Positions 9,434 through 20,630 of a stretch of 23,495 bases of DNA are shown piece after piece. The stretch's first letter is position 1. Every line of letters starts with the position of its first letter. The position numbers were made by a program, and so were the translations under genes. The notes under the pieces were generated by a model. The model was not told where the DNA came from and ran no database searches. It saw only the letters and a list, made by a program, of their open reading frames with translations. The DNA is from a virus: positions 1 through 23,495 of IMG/VR virus record IMGVR_UViG_3300022074_000386; one strand, given 5' to 3'.

Positions 9434-9774
9434 TAGGCCTCAAACACCTGCTCGAAAGTAGCAGTGATAGTAAACAAATTAGAATACGGCAAGGTCTTTT
9501 GCCACTCACGGCAAATCCACCTGTATGTAGCCGTATCATCTGGTGGGCTCCAGTCAAACGACTCAACGCCTTTGCGAAGCTCTAAGAAGGTTTCAATGTT
9601 ATTTGCCTCTGTAGACGTTCTGTTCTCGAAAGACAGTGTCCAAACCTTAGGATCTTGGTTAATGCCAAACGTCACCCTCTGCGAGTAACCAGAGCCAAAT
9701 TCAACAGCGCGAACACGCGGTTTTGACCTTTTGCTGGCTCCGTAGTCAGGAGTGAAGGTGAAAGTTTCTGCCAT
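9433..9774 (-). CDS. M: Minor tail protein M
   Basis: A 113-residue protein, matching the short lambda M-type minor tail family. The N-terminus has FTFTPDYGASKRSKPRVRAV, then FGSGYSQRVTFG, with the family's 'GYSQR' hallmark. WTLSFENRTSTEA, FDWSPPDD and WICREWQKTLPYSNLFTITA complete the family pattern, and it ends TFEQVFEA. It sits between tape measure and L, as in lambda, and overlaps both neighbours by TAATG junctions. GGAGG lies about 11 bases before the ATG. It is a structural tail-tip component near the distal end of the tape measure. Confidence 0.93.
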   Translation of the reverse strand: MAETFTFTPDYGASKRSKPRVRAVEFGSGYSQRVTFGINQDPKVWTLSFENRTSTEANNIETFLELRKGVESFDWSPPDDTATYRWICREWQKTLPYSNLFTITATFEQVFEA

Positions 9775-12700
9775 TAGCTAAGCAAGCCTCCAGGACGCTT
9801 CTGCCTTACCAACTCAGCCTGCACTGCTGCTCCAATAGCAGAGCCAAGAGCTTTTGCGTTGGGCTGGTCGCCTTGCACTCTGGAGCCTGATGCGTCAACG
9901 TTCACCACTACATTACCAACGCCACCAGAAGCCTCAACGCCTAACTTGCCGTTAGACCCGCGACGCAGCGGCATAATGGCTTCTGGGCCTGCCTCTCCCA
10001 TGATCCCAGCACCCTTTGCCATTGGGAAGATCGTTGGCTTATTAACAATGCCGCCATATGCAAATGGCACGATCTTGTTCTTGGCGTAAACGTTGCCTTT
10101 AGCGTTCGCGACGCTACTAGCACTGCCTCCTAATTCAAGGAAGTTACCAACGCCAGGAATAAGCGAAAGCCCTTTAAACAACGCAGCCTTGGCAAATATG
10201 CGAGAAAGGTCTTGCAAGATTGACTTTGTCATGTCGGCAAAATCTGCCTTGCCGGTTGCCACAAAATCAGCAAACGTATCGCCTAACGTCTGAACTGCCT
10301 GCACCGCTTGTGTCGCCAGTGCATCCTTCAAGTTCATTGCTTCCTCAAATATCTTTTCCAAGCCATTTCTAAAGTTATCTAAAGGCTCTTTTGTCTTTAG
10401 AAGCTTTTCTTTGATTTTTTGATATAGATCTGGCATGCCCTCTAAGAGGACTTTCATCTCATCTAATATTTTTTTACGTTCATATTCTTCCTGAGTGATC
10501 TCGCCAGCAAGCACTCTTGCTTGTTCAATTCGATCTTTTTTGCGGGCCTCTGCTTCTGCCTCTCTTTCTGCTTGGTCGGCACTTTCTTGCCTTAAGTCTC
10601 GGCCTCTAATTACTAAATCAAAGCCAGCCTGCAGAATTGCGTTCGCCCGAGCGAGAGCGTCTTCCGTCTCTTGGTTCGCAGTCAAAATATCTAATTCATA
10701 CGTCAAAGACGACTCAAGGAATTTGTTTTCATCAAACCTTGCCTGACGAATCTTGTTTCTTATATCAAGCTCAGCTTGAGTCATCATGACTCGTGTAGAC
10801 CCTGAGCCGCCACCATCTGAGTCTGGGTCGTCATAGTTATTTGGAGTGTAAGACTTAGGAGGGTCAATAGGAAGACCCGACATGCGGTCATACTCGACGC
10901 CTGCAACCGTGTAAGTACTTGCAAGTTTCATTGCAAGTGACAGGTTGTCAGCAGCAATTTTTGCTGCCTTTAGTTGATTTTCAAGTTGTCTAATCATCCG
11001 TCCGTTGCCTTCTGTCTCAAGACGGTCTTGCAACTCTTTAACCTTGTCATTCATCTCGCGAAGCCTATCGTTAGCCTCCTTATTAGTCGTCTCTCCAGCT
11101 ATCACTGACTTATTGAATTCTGCGTTCTTTTTGCTGTATTTGACCAAAGCAACTGTTGCTGCCGCAATACCTGCAGCTAAAGCAACCCAGGGATTGAGCA
11201 AAGACGCAGCTGTAAAGGACTTCATCGCCACTGTCGCCTTTCCGAAAGCTGTCCCAAGCGCAGTTGCAATCCCTATAAGATTCTGCAAAGCCAATGCAAT
11301 CCCAGCTGCGCCAGCAACAATCAAAAGCTCTTTAAAGTTTGCTATCAAGAAAGACGATGCATCTAGAAGTGCATTTAATCCCCTGGCTGCAGCGACTGCA
11401 CCTGACTTAATGGCAGGAAGGATTTCAAGCACAAACTCCGCAAATGCTTCTTGCAGTGCAGCTCCAATTGGCTGCAAAGCCTCACCAACTTCGCGACGAA
11501 CTTGGTCAAATGCAACTTTTGCCTTTGCTCCAGCATCCGCACTGCTATCCGCGATAGCTCTTGCTGTTTCTTCGTACCTCGGCCCTAGACTAATTATAAA
11601 CTTCATTAACTCATCTAGGCCTACGGTGCCTGCTTTAAATGCTTTTTGCAGCTCCGGCAAAGTCATCTTATTTGCCTCTGCAAATTGAGTAACAGCGCCT
11701 GGCAGTCTTTCACCTAACTGCCCAGAAAGCTCTTCTGCACTAACACGTCCCTTGCTGAAAGTTTGCACCATAGCTGTTATCGCCGACTCTACATCTTGCG
11801 CTCCTCCACCTGTCGCTTTTATCGCAGAAGTAACATTTCTAAAAACAACTTCTGCGTCCTCGATGTTACCACCTGCTCCAATGACTGCAGCTGACAAGCG
11901 CGTAATACCTTTAGTTGATACAGCCAAGGGTACATTAAAGTCCTTTGTAACTTCTGCCGCTGCTTTTAAAGCATCTGTGTACTGTGCGCCTGCTACACCC
12001 TCAAGAGCTATCTCAAGCTTTTGCAGTTGAGCCGCATAATCAGAAGTTGCGCCGAGCGCCTCACGCAGCATCTTCGCTTGTGCGCCGAGTGCGGCGCCAG
12101 CTGCTACTCCTGCAATGCCGCCAACTGCACCACCAACGGCGGCACCTAACGCACCTTCTGGGCCGCCGAAAACTCCGCCAGCAGCAACACCACCCAACCC
12201 TTGAGCTATGCCCCTAACAGTAGGTCTGCGACGACGCTTGTTTAATTTTTCAAGTTGACGATCTGTTTTTTCTATTTGATTACCTAGTTCGCGAAAGTCT
12301 TGACTTGTAGGGTCAAGGCCTGCTCGCAATTGTGCAAACGCAGCTCTCTGCGCCTGCAGACTATTAATGCTGCCCTTAGACGCAGCCGCTTGTCGATTAA
12401 TCTCAGCCGTCACTTGCGAGAGAGAACGACCCATCATTTCAGTAGCTGCCTTTGTATCAGCAGAACCAATAGAAGCAATTGTCCTAAAAAGACCACTAGC
12501 TTCAACTGGTTGATCAAGCATTAAGGGAGGCAAAGCGCCTCTTTCTCTGCGCCTGCGATTTCTAGCTATAGATTTAGCTACAGGATCAGTTTCGCCACCA
12601 AAACGTCCCAAAGTGCCTAAACGCGACCTGATCTCCGTTTTACGACCGGTTGGGTCAAGAGGATTTATGTCAAGCTGTCTTTGAAGGTCATTAATCCTAC

Positions 12701-13418
12701 GCAAAGTTGATATGTACTCTTCGCCTCCAATAACAAGATTGCCTAAATCAGACCGAAGCTCTTTAAGCTCCATCTGAACATTGTTTGTAGTTGCAGGTAG
12801 CTGGTTCAGCTCCCCGCCAAAGGTCTTTACAATTTCTGCTGCAGTCCTAAGTTTTTTATTGTTATCAACCTGCGCTTTAGTAACAGCTTGTATTTTCGCC
12901 TGCAATCTGCTCTCAAGCCTGATTCTTGCCTCAGCTAAAACATTTTGCCTGGATTGTTGAGCAACAAACTCCTCACGTAAGCCACCCTGCTCGTCAAAAG
13001 GCAGTACAGAAGGTCGACTTGCTGCAAAAGCTTCTGCCTCTAGAAACCTACCAGGGGTAGCCTTTACAAAAGTGCCTCTACGTCTAATCGCCGCTTGACT
13101 TGTTTCAGCAGTCTGCTCAGCTTTCTTGAGCTTTGCCTCGTAAAAAGCAATGTCCTTCCCAAGTTGCTGGAAAGTTTTGCTATTAAGGGCAGACTGACTC
13201 TGAAGCCCTTTCAAGGCTGTAACTTGACCTCTAATTACACTTATGCTCTCTCCACCTGATGTCGAAAAGTTTTTAACTCCTTTCGCAATTTCTTGCAGGC
13301 TTTTGCTAGTTATATCCGCAGTGCTGGCAAGCCCCCTTAGACTACTTTTTATCTTGGCGATCTCTTCAATACCTTTGAGGCCAAGCTTGATCTGTAGTTC
13401 TTCGACAGTTTTAGCCAT
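9774..13418 (-). CDS. H: Tail tape measure protein
   Basis: A 1214-residue protein. The N-terminal 400 residues are helical and charged (start MAKTVEELQIKLGLKG, repeated predicted coiled coil). A glycine/alanine-rich segment occupies about 405-445. The tape-measure core domain lies at about 450-650 (SDYAAQLQKLEIALEGVAG, then FSKGRVSAEELSGQLGERLP). Two hydrophobic segments occur near 690-715 (ELLIVAGAAGIALALQNLIG) and 738-757 (LNPWVALAAGIAAATVALV), likely membrane-active during DNA injection. A charged helical region spans about 900-1020, and a lambda-H-like C-terminal domain ends in GEAGPEAIMPLRRGSNGKLG. Its ATG overlaps the end of the T frame by 8 bases. By scaling with lambda, length predicts a tail well beyond 150 nm, perhaps about 180 nm (inference). 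It sets tail length with the G/GT chaperones. Confidence 0.95.
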   Translation of the reverse strand: MAKTVEELQIKLGLKGIEEIAKIKSSLRGLASTADITSKSLQEIAKGVKNFSTSGGESISVIRGQVTALKGLQSQSALNSKTFQQLGKDIAFYEAKLKKAEQTAETSQAAIRRRGTFVKATPGRFLEAEAFAASRPSVLPFDEQGGLREEFVAQQSRQNVLAEARIRLESRLQAKIQAVTKAQVDNNKKLRTAAEIVKTFGGELNQLPATTNNVQMELKELRSDLGNLVIGGEEYISTLRRINDLQRQLDINPLDPTGRKTEIRSRLGTLGRFGGETDPVAKSIARNRRRRERGALPPLMLDQPVEASGLFRTIASIGSADTKAATEMMGRSLSQVTAEINRQAAASKGSINSLQAQRAAFAQLRAGLDPTSQDFRELGNQIEKTDRQLEKLNKRRRRPTVRGIAQGLGGVAAGGVFGGPEGALGAAVGGAVGGIAGVAAGAALGAQAKMLREALGATSDYAAQLQKLEIALEGVAGAQYTDALKAAAEVTKDFNVPLAVSTKGITRLSAAVIGAGGNIEDAEVVFRNVTSAIKATGGGAQDVESAITAMVQTFSKGRVSAEELSGQLGERLPGAVTQFAEANKMTLPELQKAFKAGTVGLDELMKFIISLGPRYEETARAIADSSADAGAKAKVAFDQVRREVGEALQPIGAALQEAFAEFVLEILPAIKSGAVAAARGLNALLDASSFLIANFKELLIVAGAAGIALALQNLIGIATALGTAFGKATVAMKSFTAASLLNPWVALAAGIAAATVALVKYSKKNAEFNKSVIAGETTNKEANDRLREMNDKVKELQDRLETEGNGRMIRQLENQLKAAKIAADNLSLAMKLASTYTVAGVEYDRMSGLPIDPPKSYTPNNYDDPDSDGGGSGSTRVMMTQAELDIRNKIRQARFDENKFLESSLTYELDILTANQETEDALARANAILQAGFDLVIRGRDLRQESADQAEREAEAEARKKDRIEQARVLAGEITQEEYERKKILDEMKVLLEGMPDLYQKIKEKLLKTKEPLDNFRNGLEKIFEEAMNLKDALATQAVQAVQTLGDTFADFVATGKADFADMTKSILQDLSRIFAKAALFKGLSLIPGVGNFLELGGSASSVANAKGNVYAKNKIVPFAYGGIVNKPTIFPMAKGAGIMGEAGPEAIMPLRRGSNGKLGVEASGGVGNVVVNVDASGSRVQGDQPNAKALGSAIGAAVQAELVRQKRPGGLLS

Positions 13419-14087
13419 CTGCCTTCTTGCTGAATTCGGTCAGAGCAGCGGATTCCATAATGCGAAGACCCTCTAGCACTTCACGACGGTTCTCCACATC
13501 ATAAAGGTCGAAAAGGCCTCCGGAAACCAGCAATACGTCATATCGCAACCCAACGTACCCAGCCATGCTGACTGTCCATTGCGTCTGCATGCGCAGGAAC
13601 ATCATCACAATGTCCCAGTTCTCGTCCCATACCTCAAAATCCGCAGACTCCTGCTTTTTGGGTTTTGGCAGCTCTATACCAAACGCCGCAGCGTCCTCTT
13701 GAGTCTTGTCCTCAATGATTTTACCGCCAGAAGCCCAATGCACTGCGGCCTCCTTCAGTTTCCCGCTTGCGCCTCCCCATAAGTCTTGGTGTATGCAGCG
13801 AGAACAGCTTTCAGCCAATCGACGTCATCGGAGAAATCATCTAACTCTGCCTCTGAAAACTCAACTGGATCTCCATCCTCGTCATTAATACCTTCCCATC
13901 CAACAAGAACTTTTTTCAAAAGAGAGACGCCTTCTGCCTCGCTCACACCCTCAAGCTCTGACAGCTTGACACGCTTGAAAATCGCAGTGAATTCTGATTT
14001 TTCAAACTTGCCAGGCTTTTTCTCGCTTGGCTCTTGTACTTCTACGGGCCACTTGAAAGTTTTGACCTTTTTGCGAACAAAAGCCAT
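13411..14087 (-). CDS. GT: Tail assembly chaperone GT (G-T fusion by -1 frameshift)
   Basis: Predicted 225-residue product made when ribosomes slip -1 at GGGAAAC (13758-13764) near the end of G, then continue through the T frame to TAA at 13411-13413. The T half (about 115 residues: LKEAAVHWASGGK, then ENWDIVMMFLRMQTQW, VGLRYDVLL and RIMESAALTEF) looks like the DUF1799-type T domain of tail chaperones. The T frame opens only with a TTG at 13818 deep inside G, without a ribosome binding site, and its first 18 codons look like shadow sequence, so frameshifting is the natural route. The T end overlaps the tape measure ATG, as expected for proteins that bind the tape measure and recruit tail tube subunits. 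It is absent from the mature virion in lambda. Confidence 0.9.
13755..14087 (-). CDS. G: Tail assembly chaperone G
   Basis: A 110-residue protein ending at TGA 13755-13757. It starts MAFVRKKVKTFKWPVEVQEP and has a KFEKSEFTAIFKRVKLSELE block, then VLVGWEGINDEDGDPVEFSE and an acidic segment, and ends KTYGEAQAGN. This is the usual G-type chaperone pattern: a basic WPV-containing N-terminus, then the 'GW..i.d.dg..v.fs' block. Its last two sense codons, GGA AAC, are part of the slippery site. It is the first gene after the intrinsic terminator behind the tail tube; the ATG has no evident Shine-Dalgarno. It acts in the cytoplasm, coating the tape measure before tube polymerisation. Confidence 0.9.
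   Translation of the reverse strand: MAFVRKKVKTFKWPVEVQEPSEKKPGKFEKSEFTAIFKRVKLSELEGVSEAEGVSLLKKVLVGWEGINDEDGDPVEFSEAELDDFSDDVDWLKAVLAAYTKTYGEAQAGN
13758..13764 (-). promoter_or_regulatory. Programmed -1 ribosomal frameshift site GGGAAAC
   Basis: In the G frame the codons read GCG GGA AAC TGA, giving the X XXY YYZ heptamer G GGA AAC two codons before the stop. It differs from lambda's GGGAAAG only in the last base. A purine-rich GGGGAGG (13772-13778) lies 7 bases upstream and could act as a Shine-Dalgarno-like stimulator, as in dnaX. A weak stem, CCGCAG (13743-13748) with CTGGCGG (13724-13730, one bulged G), begins 9 bases downstream. The stimulators are inference; the heptamer and frames are read directly. 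Confidence 0.9.
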
Positions 14088-14170: not shown

Positions 14171-15109
14171 TTAGGTGTAAATCAAGTCAAACTCAACGTT
14201 CGCAGACGAGTCTGGTACACAGGTGTATGGGATGTTAAGCATCGCAATACCGTCCTGGTCGCCGTAAGACACATCACCAATGTCAACCTTTGCAGAGGTG
14301 AACTGGACAATGTTCCCAGCAGCAGTGCCATGAGTGAACTGCAGATTCCCCAGTGCAGCGTCATCGTCAACCGCAGAAGCGAAGAAGTCCTTGGTGCCGA
14401 GAGCCACTGCCTCAATCGTGACAGAGCCACTCGCCGCACGATCAGTGATCAGTACCTCTTTAGAACCGCCTACAAGCTCTCGATAGACAGTTGAGTTGCC
14501 TAGGTCGAACGAGAAGCTTTGCAATGCACCGGCATAAGACAACAGCTGGAAGCCTGTAGTATTGCCGTTTTTGAACAGCAAAGGATCGTCTTGGTTTGCA
14601 TAGGTAGGCGTGATCAAAGCGCTGTCGTCTGGTGCGACGTAAATACCAGTGAACGTAAAGTCCAAGGTCGGAATCTCGCCCACATTGGCAGTGATCGCAA
14701 CGTTGCCGCGGCAGCCAGTCACCTTGTGCCTAACACCGTCAATCATGTAGTGAATGGTGACTGACGAGAAGCTTGCGCTGACAGGCTCATACTTAACGCT
14801 AGTGCTTGCAGTCACTGTTTCAGCTAAGCCACAAGCCTTGAGAGCCTTGCCGTATTGAGGTGCAGTGCCAGCAGCCCCAGAACCAGCAAGCTCAACGCTG
14901 AATGAGCATTCAACGCGAGTGTTGGCCAAAAGCTGCTGAGATGCGCCCAAATAAGGACGAATTAGGTCACGGCTGACAACATCACTGCTTTGCGGTGTGA
15001 TTTCCAGAGCCTTTACCAGTACGGCGTCCGCTCCTGTTGGAGTCGGATCGGTTGCATAAACCGACTCGCTTTCTATCAGAACTAGGCGTTTGCGGAGTAG
15101 CAGTGCCAT
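14171..15109 (-). CDS. V: Major tail tube protein
   Basis: A 312-residue protein in the position of lambda V, between the tail terminator and G. The N-terminus (MALLLRKRLVLIESESVYAT, then DPTPTGADAVLVKALEITP) and RDLIRPYLGAS are typical of a siphophage tube protein family. Other family-like blocks are VECSFSVELAGSG, GVRHKVTGCRGNV, IPTLDFTFTGIYV, and QSFSFDLGN near 200. The C-terminus (FTSAKVDIGDVSYGDQDGIA, then MLNIPYTC) completes a beta-rich tube fold. AGGTAG lies a few bases before the ATG. A strong terminator follows, fitting a protein needed in hundreds of copies. It would form stacked rings around the tape measure. Confidence 0.88.
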   Translation of the reverse strand: MALLLRKRLVLIESESVYATDPTPTGADAVLVKALEITPQSSDVVSRDLIRPYLGASQQLLANTRVECSFSVELAGSGAAGTAPQYGKALKACGLAETVTASTSVKYEPVSASFSSVTIHYMIDGVRHKVTGCRGNVAITANVGEIPTLDFTFTGIYVAPDDSALITPTYANQDDPLLFKNGNTTGFQLLSYAGALQSFSFDLGNSTVYRELVGGSKEVLITDRAASGSVTIEAVALGTKDFFASAVDDDAALGNLQFTHGTAAGNIVQFTSAKVDIGDVSYGDQDGIAMLNIPYTCVPDSSANVEFDLIYT

Positions 15110-16395: not shown

Positions 16396-16601
16396 GATTG
16401 CTTGGTCCTCTTACGAGTAGTTGGCTTTTTCGGGGGGCAAGCCGGTGCCTCCTCTTCTGCAGGGGCATCCTCTTGCTTGTGCTCAACAGCCTTGCCGAGA
16501 CCAATTAAGGTCTCAGCATCGCTGTCATCGATTTCCAGGATGGAGCCTGCATCAGCAGGCTTACCAGAAATCATTACTGATCTGAGGATTTCGACCTTCA
16601 T
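16392..16601 (-). CDS. Small post-capsid protein, conserved type
   Basis: A 69-residue protein whose ATG overlaps the capsid stop as ATGA. Residues 1-40 (MKVEILRSVMISGKPADAG, then ILEIDDSDAETLIGLGKAVE) match a small family I know directly behind phage capsid or portal genes: 'MKV.iLr.v...g..v..G.v.e..d.da..Li..GkA'. The rest is a disordered acidic then Pro/Lys/Arg-rich tail (AEEEAPACPPKKPTTRKRT). It occupies the position of lambda FI, which assists DNA packaging, but sequence alone does not show that function. Confidence 0.75.
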   Translation of the reverse strand: MKVEILRSVMISGKPADAGSILEIDDSDAETLIGLGKAVEHKQEDAPAEEEAPACPPKKPTTRKRTKQS

Positions 16602-19111
16602 CAGGTGGCGAAACAGAATGCACCAGGCTGTTTAACAGCAAAGTCGACGTCCTGCAACGCAATGATACGAACCGTACCAGCGGTAGCACCTGCATAAGGA
16701 TCAACAGTCAGGTCCAGGCCAGACCACATCGCCATGATCAGCTGTGAGAAGTCGCCAAACAGCGCATCATTGTTCGACAGCTGATTAGACACGGTCACGG
16801 GGTAGCCGTTGATCTCGTTATCGGAGAACACGAACTCACCGCTGCCTGCATCCTTCTTGGTGCTCTTCAGAGCGCCGCGAGCAGAAGCGTTGATGATGTA
16901 GCGCAAGCTGCCAGCGTCAGCATTTGCCACAGCAACATCGGTCTCCATACCGATGTACTCGTCAAATGTGCCAAAGCTGGTCAAGGACTGAGTGCCGATG
17001 CCAGTAGTGTTGATAATGCCCAAAGGCTGGTTGGAAGAACCAGAGCCATTTAAGCCAACACGATCAAGCTCAAGAGCAAGAGACTTGGCGAGGTCATCAC
17101 GGACCATTGCCTCAACGCTGATGTCAGATTGAAGCAGAAGCTTTCTGCTGAAATCCGTGAAAGCGCCGCACGTCTTTGGCGAAAGATTCACCTGCTCAAT
17201 AGTTTGCTGAGATTCGGTGGGCGAAGACCCCTCGCCTACCCAGTAAGCAGAACTCGAGCCCGACTGCTTAGGAATTGAGATGTTGCCGTTGATGCCACTC
17301 AAGGTGGTCATTCCAGCGCCAGCTAGTGCAAGGCGATTGCGCAGTAACTCAATGAAATCGCCTGACAGCAGAACATCGTCGACAAGATTTCCACCAGCGG
17401 TTGCAACACCAACTGTCAAGTCACGACGCAGCACCTCATTAGGCACCACAATGCCGTTTGAGGCACGATCGTACTTTTTAGCAGCCTCGCGTCCTACCTC
17501 AATTTCAAACTCAGCTGCCTTGCGAGCCTGTGCGTCGCCAGGGCTTGCCAAGTGATTCAGTGCGCGAATGAAGCTGAAGCGCTTGACTTCTTTCTGAGAC
17601 AGACCGACATCATTAGAAGTGACGTCGGCAGAACGGATAGGTTGTTCCACTTGACGAGTTCCGATTTTTTCGAGAAATGCAGCGCGAGCTTCGTCAATGG
17701 AGCTATCTCCATCAACCAACTCACGGGCTAGGTCTGCCATACGGTGTTGAGAACCGAGAGCATTGATAGCGGCAACGCGGTCTTTCTCGGCCTTTTTGGC
17801 CTCCGACCGAATCACCTCCAAGTTGGGAGTTTGTTCTTCCATCACAGGAGTGGGTGTAGATGCGGTGGTGACCGCTGAGCGATTTTCCTGTTTTGCAACA
17901 GGAGCTTCGTCCACAATAGTAGTGTCCGCAGGTTGTGAAGATTCAGGTGCAGCAGGCTCTTCTGAAAGAAGCGAGCGTCCGATACCAATTGTTGGATCAG
18001 CAGGAATTGAAACAAGGCTCAATTCATGTGGTGTCCAGCTAGTAGCAAGCATTCCTTCTTCGCGCTGCTCAACCTCATCGATCGAATAGCCAAACGAAAT
18101 ACCGCGCAAGATGCCGTCTTTAACGTCATCTAAGTACTGTTTGGCAAATTCAGAGCGCGAAAAGCGGATTTTGGCGTATGCACGCTTTTTGCCGTCATCG
18201 AGATAAGCCCTCTCTACAACACCTAGAACTTTGTCTGGATTGTGGTTGAACAGGAATGGCGCTCCGTCATTAAGACGCATGAAGTTAGGCGCCTTACTGT
18301 CGTGGCTCAGTATCTCAGTGCCGAAGTACCGCGTGACTGGGTACTCAGAGCTAAACGGAAACTCAAAAGTCCGCTCATCAATGCTGCGGATCTCGGTTGC
18401 CTCAGTACGCTGCATGCGCTCGCCAACCACTGAACGCTTTTCCTCCGGCTCTTCAGCGCGGATTGCGGCGATTTTGGTCAGCGTGCTGAACTTATGCCCG
18501 ACCTTGCGATCGGTTGCTTCCTTGTCCCGATAGAGCGTGATCAGTGCAGCAGGATCATCTTCTGTGCCAGTGATCGTAAAAGACGAGTCAGGCACATCAA
18601 TGCTGCCGTCACGCACGATGCGATCGATACGACCCTCGGCGCGGCCACCTGATGAATTCCAAGAGACAAAGTCTCCTGTCTTTAGAGCGTCAGGTGCCGC
18701 TCTTTCCTGTTCTTGCGCCATAGGGTCAAAGAGTTCTTCCCCATTATTGCTAATAAGTTGTCTACCCTCACGCGCTTTTTTAATTCGCTTTGAGCGGGCG
18801 TCAGACCAAGACTTGCCAGCATCTCCACCCCATGCAGCCCAAGCAACCCTGCCATTGCTCGGATACCCATCCTCTCCTGGGCTAAAGCCCTTGCCCTGCT
18901 TATCCACCTCATGCCTCGCGAACCAAGCGGACATGCTCACAACAGTGTCTGCACTTAGCTCATTGCCGCTCAAAATCTGACTAGCGCGAGTGCGTGCAAC
19001 ATCTGTGCCACCACCCTCACCTTCTGACTTCCAATCGCGATAACGCTGTGCTTCAGCCCTCATGCCGTCATTTGGCATGAGGTCAATGTCAACTCCGTTT
19101 ACGTTTGCCAT
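16601..19111 (-). CDS. Prohead protease - scaffold - major capsid fusion protein
   Basis: 836 residues from ATG 19111, where the conserved N-terminus begins; an upstream ATG at 19174 would add 21 Cys/Pro-rich residues inside the portal gene. Five parts are visible. Residues 1-116: a small conserved domain (MPNDGMRAEAQR, FARHEVDK, SPGEDGYPS, WAAWGGDAG). About 142-215: a DUF2945/Tudor-like domain (KTGDFVSWNSSGG, then VGHKFSTLTKI). About 240-385: HK97-type prohead serine protease with likely catalytic His290 (LFNHNPDKVLG) and Ser365 (ELSLVSIPADP). About 425-500: a charged helical linker/scaffold. About 505-836: HK97-fold major capsid protein (SGDFIELLRNRL, then KLLLQSDISVEAMVRDDLA). The capsid part would be released by self-processing, but in a precursor this size the cleavage scheme is unclear. 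It overlaps the portal by 23 bases. Confidence 0.9.
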   Translation of the reverse strand: MANVNGVDIDLMPNDGMRAEAQRYRDWKSEGEGGGTDVARTRASQILSGNELSADTVVSMSAWFARHEVDKQGKGFSPGEDGYPSNGRVAWAAWGGDAGKSWSDARSKRIKKAREGRQLISNNGEELFDPMAQEQERAAPDALKTGDFVSWNSSGGRAEGRIDRIVRDGSIDVPDSSFTITGTEDDPAALITLYRDKEATDRKVGHKFSTLTKIAAIRAEEPEEKRSVVGERMQRTEATEIRSIDERTFEFPFSSEYPVTRYFGTEILSHDSKAPNFMRLNDGAPFLFNHNPDKVLGVVERAYLDDGKKRAYAKIRFSRSEFAKQYLDDVKDGILRGISFGYSIDEVEQREEGMLATSWTPHELSLVSIPADPTIGIGRSLLSEEPAAPESSQPADTTIVDEAPVAKQENRSAVTTASTPTPVMEEQTPNLEVIRSEAKKAEKDRVAAINALGSQHRMADLARELVDGDSSIDEARAAFLEKIGTRQVEQPIRSADVTSNDVGLSQKEVKRFSFIRALNHLASPGDAQARKAAEFEIEVGREAAKKYDRASNGIVVPNEVLRRDLTVGVATAGGNLVDDVLLSGDFIELLRNRLALAGAGMTTLSGINGNISIPKQSGSSSAYWVGEGSSPTESQQTIEQVNLSPKTCGAFTDFSRKLLLQSDISVEAMVRDDLAKSLALELDRVGLNGSGSSNQPLGIINTTGIGTQSLTSFGTFDEYIGMETDVAVANADAGSLRYIINASARGALKSTKKDAGSGEFVFSDNEINGYPVTVSNQLSNNDALFGDFSQLIMAMWSGLDLTVDPYAGATAGTVRIIALQDVDFAVKQPGAFCFAT

Positions 19112-20630
19112 TGCTCCGCTTGCGGGTGGGCTGTGGGTCTTCTGATTCAAGCAAGGACAGCTGCATGTCCTCATCAGTCAAGTCAAGGTCCTTGTCTAGC
19201 TTGATGCCAGCCTCTTGAGCGATTTGCTGCTCACGAGCCAGCTCTGAGACATTGTCGTCAAAATCGCCGCCAGAGTAAGCAATGACTTGTGACTTAGTCA
19301 TGTAACCGGCCTGCTCGGCCTCCCTGTAAGCCTTGACTTCTTTCAAGGGGTCAACCCAGCTCCAACCACGCGGCATCCACCGAGGCGATAAATACCTCTC
19401 TGGACGCAGCTCATAGTCAGGAAAGTTGCAATAGCCGCTTAGCACCGCAAGGTTCAGCCACTCGCGGAACACCCGCATATGCATATTGTCAATCAAATAC
19501 TTCTGCACAACACGCCAGTGCTCACGATCCTCGAGCAGTGACAATCGTGAGCTGCTGTAGTTCGTATCACTAAAGTCGCGAGACAACGTTTCATAAGAAC
19601 AACCGAAGCCTGACGCAAAACGTCTGACCTTGTTTTTAACGAACATCTCAAACTGCTGATCTGGAGAGTCAATGTCTGGTACAGAAACAGTTTCGCCAGG
19701 CGAAAGGTATTTAAAAGTGCCAGGCTCAAATTCACTTATGCGTTGATTATTTTCTATATCGTCAGGGACCAGCTCTCCCTCGTTATTTGTAATAAATCCC
19801 ATGATACTTGCGCCCGCACGAGCGCGAATTACCGCTGCTTCTTCATAGCCTTGCAGCTGGTGTGCATCCGCCATCACGCTGTGGAACCACGGCACACCTC
19901 TGTTCTGACCTGGCCTTTCAGGCATAAACAGATGAATAACATCATCTGCAGGCAAGAAAACATGCTTAATTCCTGGCGATGGATTGCCTTGTAAAAATGT
20001 ATCACCAGGGTGACGTGTCAAGATCGCATAACGAACAGGACGACCCCACTCATTAACTTCAACACCATTACGCCACTCATTCCCAGCAGCCAGCGTGTCA
20101 CCTTGATAACTCTCGTCTAAAAAATCACTTTCGACCATCTGCAGCGCCAATGGCACCTTCGACTCGCCAAAGGCACGGCGCACAATTCTGAACATCGCCT
20201 CGCCTGATTCGCACATAGCGCCAGCAGCAAGCCACTCAAAATCATGAAAGCTATACCTGCCAGCGCAATCACAAGCATTCGGCCTAGTCCAATAGGACCA
20301 CTTCGCCTCAATTTCAGCGTTGATCCTGTTGTCTCGCTTGCTTCCGCGTAACTGCAGCACCTGAGATTGAAGCTTGATGCCAGTGCCGATCACATTAATC
20401 TGCGTAGTACGTTTCGCTTGACGCGCATATGGATTGTTCCGCACCATCTCGCGAGAACGGTCCCGCAGTCTTCGCAAATTCCCTCGAATCTCCGCATCGG
20501 CACTCGCCTGCGTAGACATCCAATCAGATGTCAGACGCGAAACCATCGCACCTGTGTACCCACGACGGAACGTACGCGGGTTTGGCTTGCCAAAGCCAAG
20601 AAAATTTAAAATCCTTGTCCGGATACCCAT
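19089..20630 (-). CDS. B: Portal protein (lambda B family)
   Basis: A 513-residue protein. The N-terminus (LNFLGFGKPNP, then DAEIRGNLRRLRDRSREMVR) and the run NNPYARQAKRTTQINVIGTG are the classic lambda-type portal signature. DFLDESYQGD and AGNEWRNGVEVNEWGRPVRY, a helical KHVFLPADDVIHLFMPERPG stretch and RGVPWFHSVMADAHQLQGYE follow the family order. The C-terminal part has SRDFSDTNYSSSRLSLLEDR, and DPLKEVKAYREAEQAGYMTK ending in a basic NGKRKRS tail. GAGG lies 11 bases before the ATG. It would form the dodecameric DNA-entry ring on which the terminase docks. The gene runs directly into the capsid fusion, so protease, capsid and portal are co-translated. Confidence 0.95.
   Translation of the reverse strand: MGIRTRILNFLGFGKPNPRTFRRGYTGAMVSRLTSDWMSTQASADAEIRGNLRRLRDRSREMVRNNPYARQAKRTTQINVIGTGIKLQSQVLQLRGSKRDNRINAEIEAKWSYWTRPNACDCAGRYSFHDFEWLAAGAMCESGEAMFRIVRRAFGESKVPLALQMVESDFLDESYQGDTLAAGNEWRNGVEVNEWGRPVRYAILTRHPGDTFLQGNPSPGIKHVFLPADDVIHLFMPERPGQNRGVPWFHSVMADAHQLQGYEEAAVIRARAGASIMGFITNNEGELVPDDIENNQRISEFEPGTFKYLSPGETVSVPDIDSPDQQFEMFVKNKVRRFASGFGCSYETLSRDFSDTNYSSSRLSLLEDREHWRVVQKYLIDNMHMRVFREWLNLAVLSGYCNFPDYELRPERYLSPRWMPRGWSWVDPLKEVKAYREAEQAGYMTKSQVIAYSGGDFDDNVSELAREQQIAQEAGIKLDKDLDLTDEDMQLSLLESEDPQPTRKRSNGKRKRS

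Follow-up and report, generated by a model that had tools for sequence, protein, structure and literature searches.

How a tail gene that appears to lack a start codon of its own comes to be translated is the question raised by a pair of overlapping reading frames in the window, i.e. the whole 23,495-base virus record analysed here, whose source is a marine-type phage and whose minus strand encodes a head and tail module (Table 1). Between the tail tube gene and the tape measure gene sits a short gene, G, with the 3' end GCG GGA AAC TGA, and from this end a second frame, T, continues in the -1 register, reads LKEAAVHW... and stops at a TAA (13411-13413) lying just inside the tape measure gene, of which the ATG occupies 13416-13418. 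On the sequence evidence, we hold it highly probable that a programmed -1 ribosomal frameshift joins the two frames into a predicted G-T fusion.

Table 1. Features of the predicted frameshift locus and its neighbors, in window coordinates
Feature	Position	Strand	Basis
Tail tube protein (V-like), upstream of G	14171..15109	-	PF18906 Phage_tube_2
G, predicted tail assembly chaperone, zero-frame product, 110 aa + TGA	13755..14087	-	Open reading frame and translation, phrog_569, position
SD-like GGGGAGG, 7 nt before heptamer, possible upstream stimulator	13772..13778	-	Anti-SD pairing; putative role
Predicted slippery heptamer G_GGA_AAC	13758..13764	-	X_XXY_YYZ phase; invariant in 84 distinct clade sequences
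TGA, zero-frame stop of G	13755..13757	-	Abuts heptamer; stop-adjacency in 30/38 lineages
Possible downstream stem-loop, 4 nt after heptamer	13729..13753	-	Family-wide excess structure
T, -1 frame extension, 115 codons + TAA, DUF1799	13411..13758	-	Starts at junction codon CTG
Tape measure protein (H-like)	9774..13418	-	PF20155 TMP_3 + Tape_meas_lam_C; start overlaps T end

The T frame matches the DUF1799 family (PF08809; 2.3e-14, 53.8 bits against a gathering score of 26) and phrog_680 (2.3e-23), and G matches phrog_569 (3.4e-12). The score of G against Phage_TAC_4 (PF08748; 0.011, 16.4 bits) lies under the Pfam gathering score of 21.1, and by its sequence G is possibly a distant relative of that family. 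The original prediction had placed GGGAAAC in X_XXY_YYZ phase at the TGA of G, and had described the -1 frame as a DUF1799-like T of about 115 residues ending over the tape measure ATG; the coordinates, phase and sequence of the heptamer, as well as the length, end point and family of T, all proved correct. As a plain 7-mer, GGGAAAC is not rare in the window (2 occurrences vs 2.2 expected), so that its mere presence is uninformative, and what carries information is its phase and position. The heptamer count was dropped as evidence, since about two are expected by chance. Within the window's G, GGGAAAC is the only in-phase heptamer.

Relatives of the locus share both the heptamer and the frame offset, as the prediction had required of them. 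GGGAAAC followed by TAA or TGA, with the same -1 offset, was found in 81/81 sequences (80 relatives retrieved through G, plus the window), and among T-family loci of the 60% identity group to which the window belongs, every one with G in view (154/154) contained GGGAAAC. In 84 distinct 240-nt sequences of the clade, pooled from G-found and T-derived loci and selected for GGGAAAC at the stop, sequence variation is zero within the heptamer, upstream of it the variation entropy peaks at third positions of the G frame (1.31-1.53), and downstream it peaks at third positions of the T frame (1.26-1.41). This switch of third-position variation from one frame to the other points to coding selection in both frames, with the frame changing at the heptamer. 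The codon before GGA is GCG, TCG, GTG or CCG, and always NNG, in the 65 distinct G genes, while the encoded residue varies among Ala, Ser, Val and Pro. Likewise, the Asn codon of the heptamer is always AAC, even though elsewhere in the same G genes AAT outnumbers AAC by 53 to 8.

Were T instead a separate gene, started without fusion from an internal TTG or a non-AUG codon, a usable start should be found ahead of its conserved part. The window does hold a TTG (13816-13818) within G, 20 codons before the junction, and databases list a separate T in S-CBS1, PS-1 and RC1. As the prediction had it, T has no ATG before the conserved part and opens with this TTG, which is the sole candidate start ahead of the junction; a purine-rich ribosome site was looked for upstream of the TTG and none was found, and its counterpart is missing in many relatives. 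From the upstream stop to the end of the LKEAAxxW block, 53 of the 84 distinct sequences contain no ATG, GTG or TTG in the T frame at all, and in 70 of the 84 the junction codon is CTA, which is not a start. The window's clade yielded no case of T having a conserved start and lacking the slippery site. An independent start, which in addition leaves the invariance of the heptamer unexplained, was rejected on these counts, and we regard it as very improbable.

A change of frame made by RNA polymerase slipping on a homopolymer run, rather than by the ribosome, is less probable still. Many relatives carry A6 runs (AAAAAAC) at the same place, on which slippage of this kind might be imagined, but the window offers GGG and AAA only, GGGAAAC and AAAAAAC swap among lineages, and the bacterial transcriptional slippage on record involves runs of about 9 A or T (PMC5009743); for GGGAAAC this explanation was rejected. 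That a sequencing error or pseudogene has split one gene into two frames has nothing in its favor beyond the frame break itself and a negligible probability, being refuted by relatives in which the break falls at the identical position in independent contigs and sequenced phage isolates, with purifying selection in both frames.

Under the programmed -1 frameshift, most ribosomes would translate G and terminate at the TGA. In a minority, tRNA-Gly on GGA and tRNA-Asn on AAC would shift back by one base to pair with GGG and AAA, after which these ribosomes would read CTG as their next codon, now in the T frame, and produce ...QAGN-LKEAAVHW... across the junction. Both the occurrence of slippage and its efficiency are inferred, and it may be helped by the stop next to the site, by the SD-like element and by a hairpin downstream. 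By analogy with lambda, free G would coat the tape measure protein and the T part of the rare G-T molecules would recruit the tail tube subunit, a putative chaperone role for G and G-T alike.

In order to place the site within the wider DUF1799 family, T homologues were gathered from phage isolates and viral contigs and divided into 38 groups at 60% T identity; a single-protein scan of genome contigs led to one locus. A heptamer lies directly before the zero-frame stop in 30/38 lineages (AAAAAAC in 19, GGGAAAC in 11). Of the eight lineages without a stop-adjacent heptamer, four have XXXAAAC or AAAAAAG 3-30 nt before the stop, including two in which AAAAAAC sits one codon earlier than the stop-adjacent position, and the other four depart from the usual type of site: in one, an unusual heptamer precedes the stop by 9 nt, and three have no heptamer of X_XXY_YYZ form, among them L277, for which G may have been wrongly assigned. 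In the L295 and L288 groups the heptamer, GGGAAAC or AAAAAAG, stands 24-30 nt back from the stop of G, as lambda's also stands back from its stop. The background frequency of in-phase X_XXY_YYZ heptamers, across the G genes of the 38 lineages, is 14 of 4658 codon junctions (0.3%). A binomial test of the stop-adjacent heptamers returns an extreme value, which takes the lineages as independent and is explained in part by common descent; that the exact bases are kept while the amino acids vary is the better argument.

Signals that could stimulate slippage were found on both sides of the site in 35 representatives, a set that includes four extra members of the window's clade and is therefore not fully independent. 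Upstream, anti-SD pairing is strongest just before the heptamer: 10-nt windows that begin between 16 and 12 nt ahead of it average about -5 kcal/mol, against values of roughly 0 to -2 at greater distances upstream, and their pairing is stronger than in synonymously shuffled sequences by 1.1-1.2 kcal/mol (standard error 0.26); the SD-like GGGGAGG is clear in the window. Downstream, 45-nt windows that open at +5 from the heptamer have a more stable predicted fold than their synonymously shuffled versions (mean z -1.52, standard error 0.24), an excess that drops to about zero further on. For a possible dnaX-like arrangement, with an SD-like element upstream and a stem-loop downstream, the signals are family-wide, and the window's hairpin taken alone gives a modest, non-significant z of -1.27. 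Covariation support for the hairpin within the clade was not found (RNAalifold -4.8 kcal/mol, covariation term -0.34), on which result a downstream RNA structure conserved within the clade was rejected, so that the hairpin draws on the family-wide energy excess only. An Rfam scan of the window returned no known element. Taken over the family, the predicted site of DUF1799 phages usually consists of XXXAAAC with an adjacent stop, SD-like purines upstream and excess RNA structure downstream.

The near-fixed XXXAAAC-stop layout suggests that the stop may have a part in the shift. A_AAA_AAC slips far less readily than A_AAA_AAG in E. coli (PMC5009743), which makes the efficiency of an AAC-ending site on bacterial ribosomes uncertain. 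A tentative and rather unlikely extension is that DUF1799-type phages use a termination-coupled G/GT shift, in which the zero-frame stop would occupy the A site while tRNA-Asn slips from AAC to AAA, and release-factor supply, the SD-like element and the hairpin would jointly set the G : G-T ratio. Such coupling, if true, would account for the almost constant placement of XXXAAAC, which in E. coli performs poorly next to AAG-ending sites, directly against a stop. Some dnaX slippery sites are reported to be followed at once by the zero-frame stop (PMC5009743), and mean site-to-stop distances of 26 and 36 nt in the two tail-chaperone sets of PRFect (PMC10885494) put a distance of zero at the close end of the range.

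The lambda mechanism and its spread among tailed phages have been reviewed (PMC5009743), and the original prediction's description of the locus as lambda-type is right in part. What the window shares with lambda G/GT is the position between tube and tape measure genes, a short G with a -1 extension T in overlapping frames, an in-phase heptamer of the form G_GGA_AA(Z) leading into an open -1 frame, and a conserved offset. The likeness in gene order and direction of shift does not extend to the heptamer's last base (AAC, not AAG), to its spacing (in lambda, analysed as a control, 15 nt separate GGGAAAG from the stop, and the window has no gap) or to the protein families, which in lambda are Phage_TAC_2 (PF06894) and Phage_tail_T (PF06223) and in the window TAC_4-like and DUF1799; the window's G and T gave no accepted match to PF06894 or PF06223. 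Burkholderia phage KL1 gp18/gp19 has a predicted GGGAAAC directly before the TGA of its first gene (PMC3483164), but its T part belongs to Phage_TAC_18, without a DUF1799 profile match, and an additional gene stands ahead of the tape measure. Heptamers of both types have also been reported elsewhere, e.g. G_GGA_AAC and A_AAA_AAC in haloarchaeal tailed viruses (PMC5009743), AAAAAAC in phiCbK and GGGAAAC in Colossus (PMC3556154).

Closer in T family are the Drexlerviridae tape measure chaperones (Phage_TAC_4 and DUF1799), of which pSf-1 has A_AAA_AAC directly before TAA, a heptamer different from the window's; in Klebsiella phage Sushi the annotation joins the frames into a frameshift product. 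Sushi-type Klebsiella phages read GCA AAA GTT TAA, a non-standard heptamer, so that the shift has apparently been retained at a different kind of site, possibly, judging from these bases, through single-tRNA slippage on A_AAA. Sushi (L098:820-930) and its relatives among L299-L319 retain the DUF1799 frame and have no standard heptamer. The Synechococcus phages S-CBS1, S-CBS3 and S-LBS1 share a homologous G, an alignable T, a stop-adjacent heptamer and the -1 offset with the window, and differ in having AAAAAAC instead of GGGAAAC and in being annotated as separate or hypothetical genes.

The G/GT frameshift system is already known, from lambda and, for GGGAAAC-TGA, from KL1, and the window is a well supported new example. 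A literature search for DUF1799 together with frameshift found no paper, and papers outside its scope may exist. What the family adds is that the DUF1799 'gene' beside many tape measure genes would, in most lineages, be the C-terminal half of a frameshift fusion, so that its annotation as an independent gene starting at TTG or CTG is probably spurious; T is frequently entered as a gene of its own in public records (e.g. S-CBS1, PS-1 and RC1, with the RC1 gene beginning at the junction CTG). The family-wide XXXAAAC-stop signature offers an easy detection rule, and the natural site variants should be useful for learning how bacterial ribosomes handle AAC-ending heptamers, and whether an adjacent stop helps.

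Some labels in the records are likely misannotations, with the G of S-LBS1 (L087:2501-2881) named a siderophore-transport ATPase and the T of Acidovorax phage Aval (L092:989-1300) an FAD-dependent oxidoreductase. In the head module of the window, one 857-aa frame (16601-19174, minus strand) has matches to head maturation protease families as well as to major head protein families and is, by these matches, a predicted protease-capsid fusion. The portal gene ends (19089) within the start of this frame.
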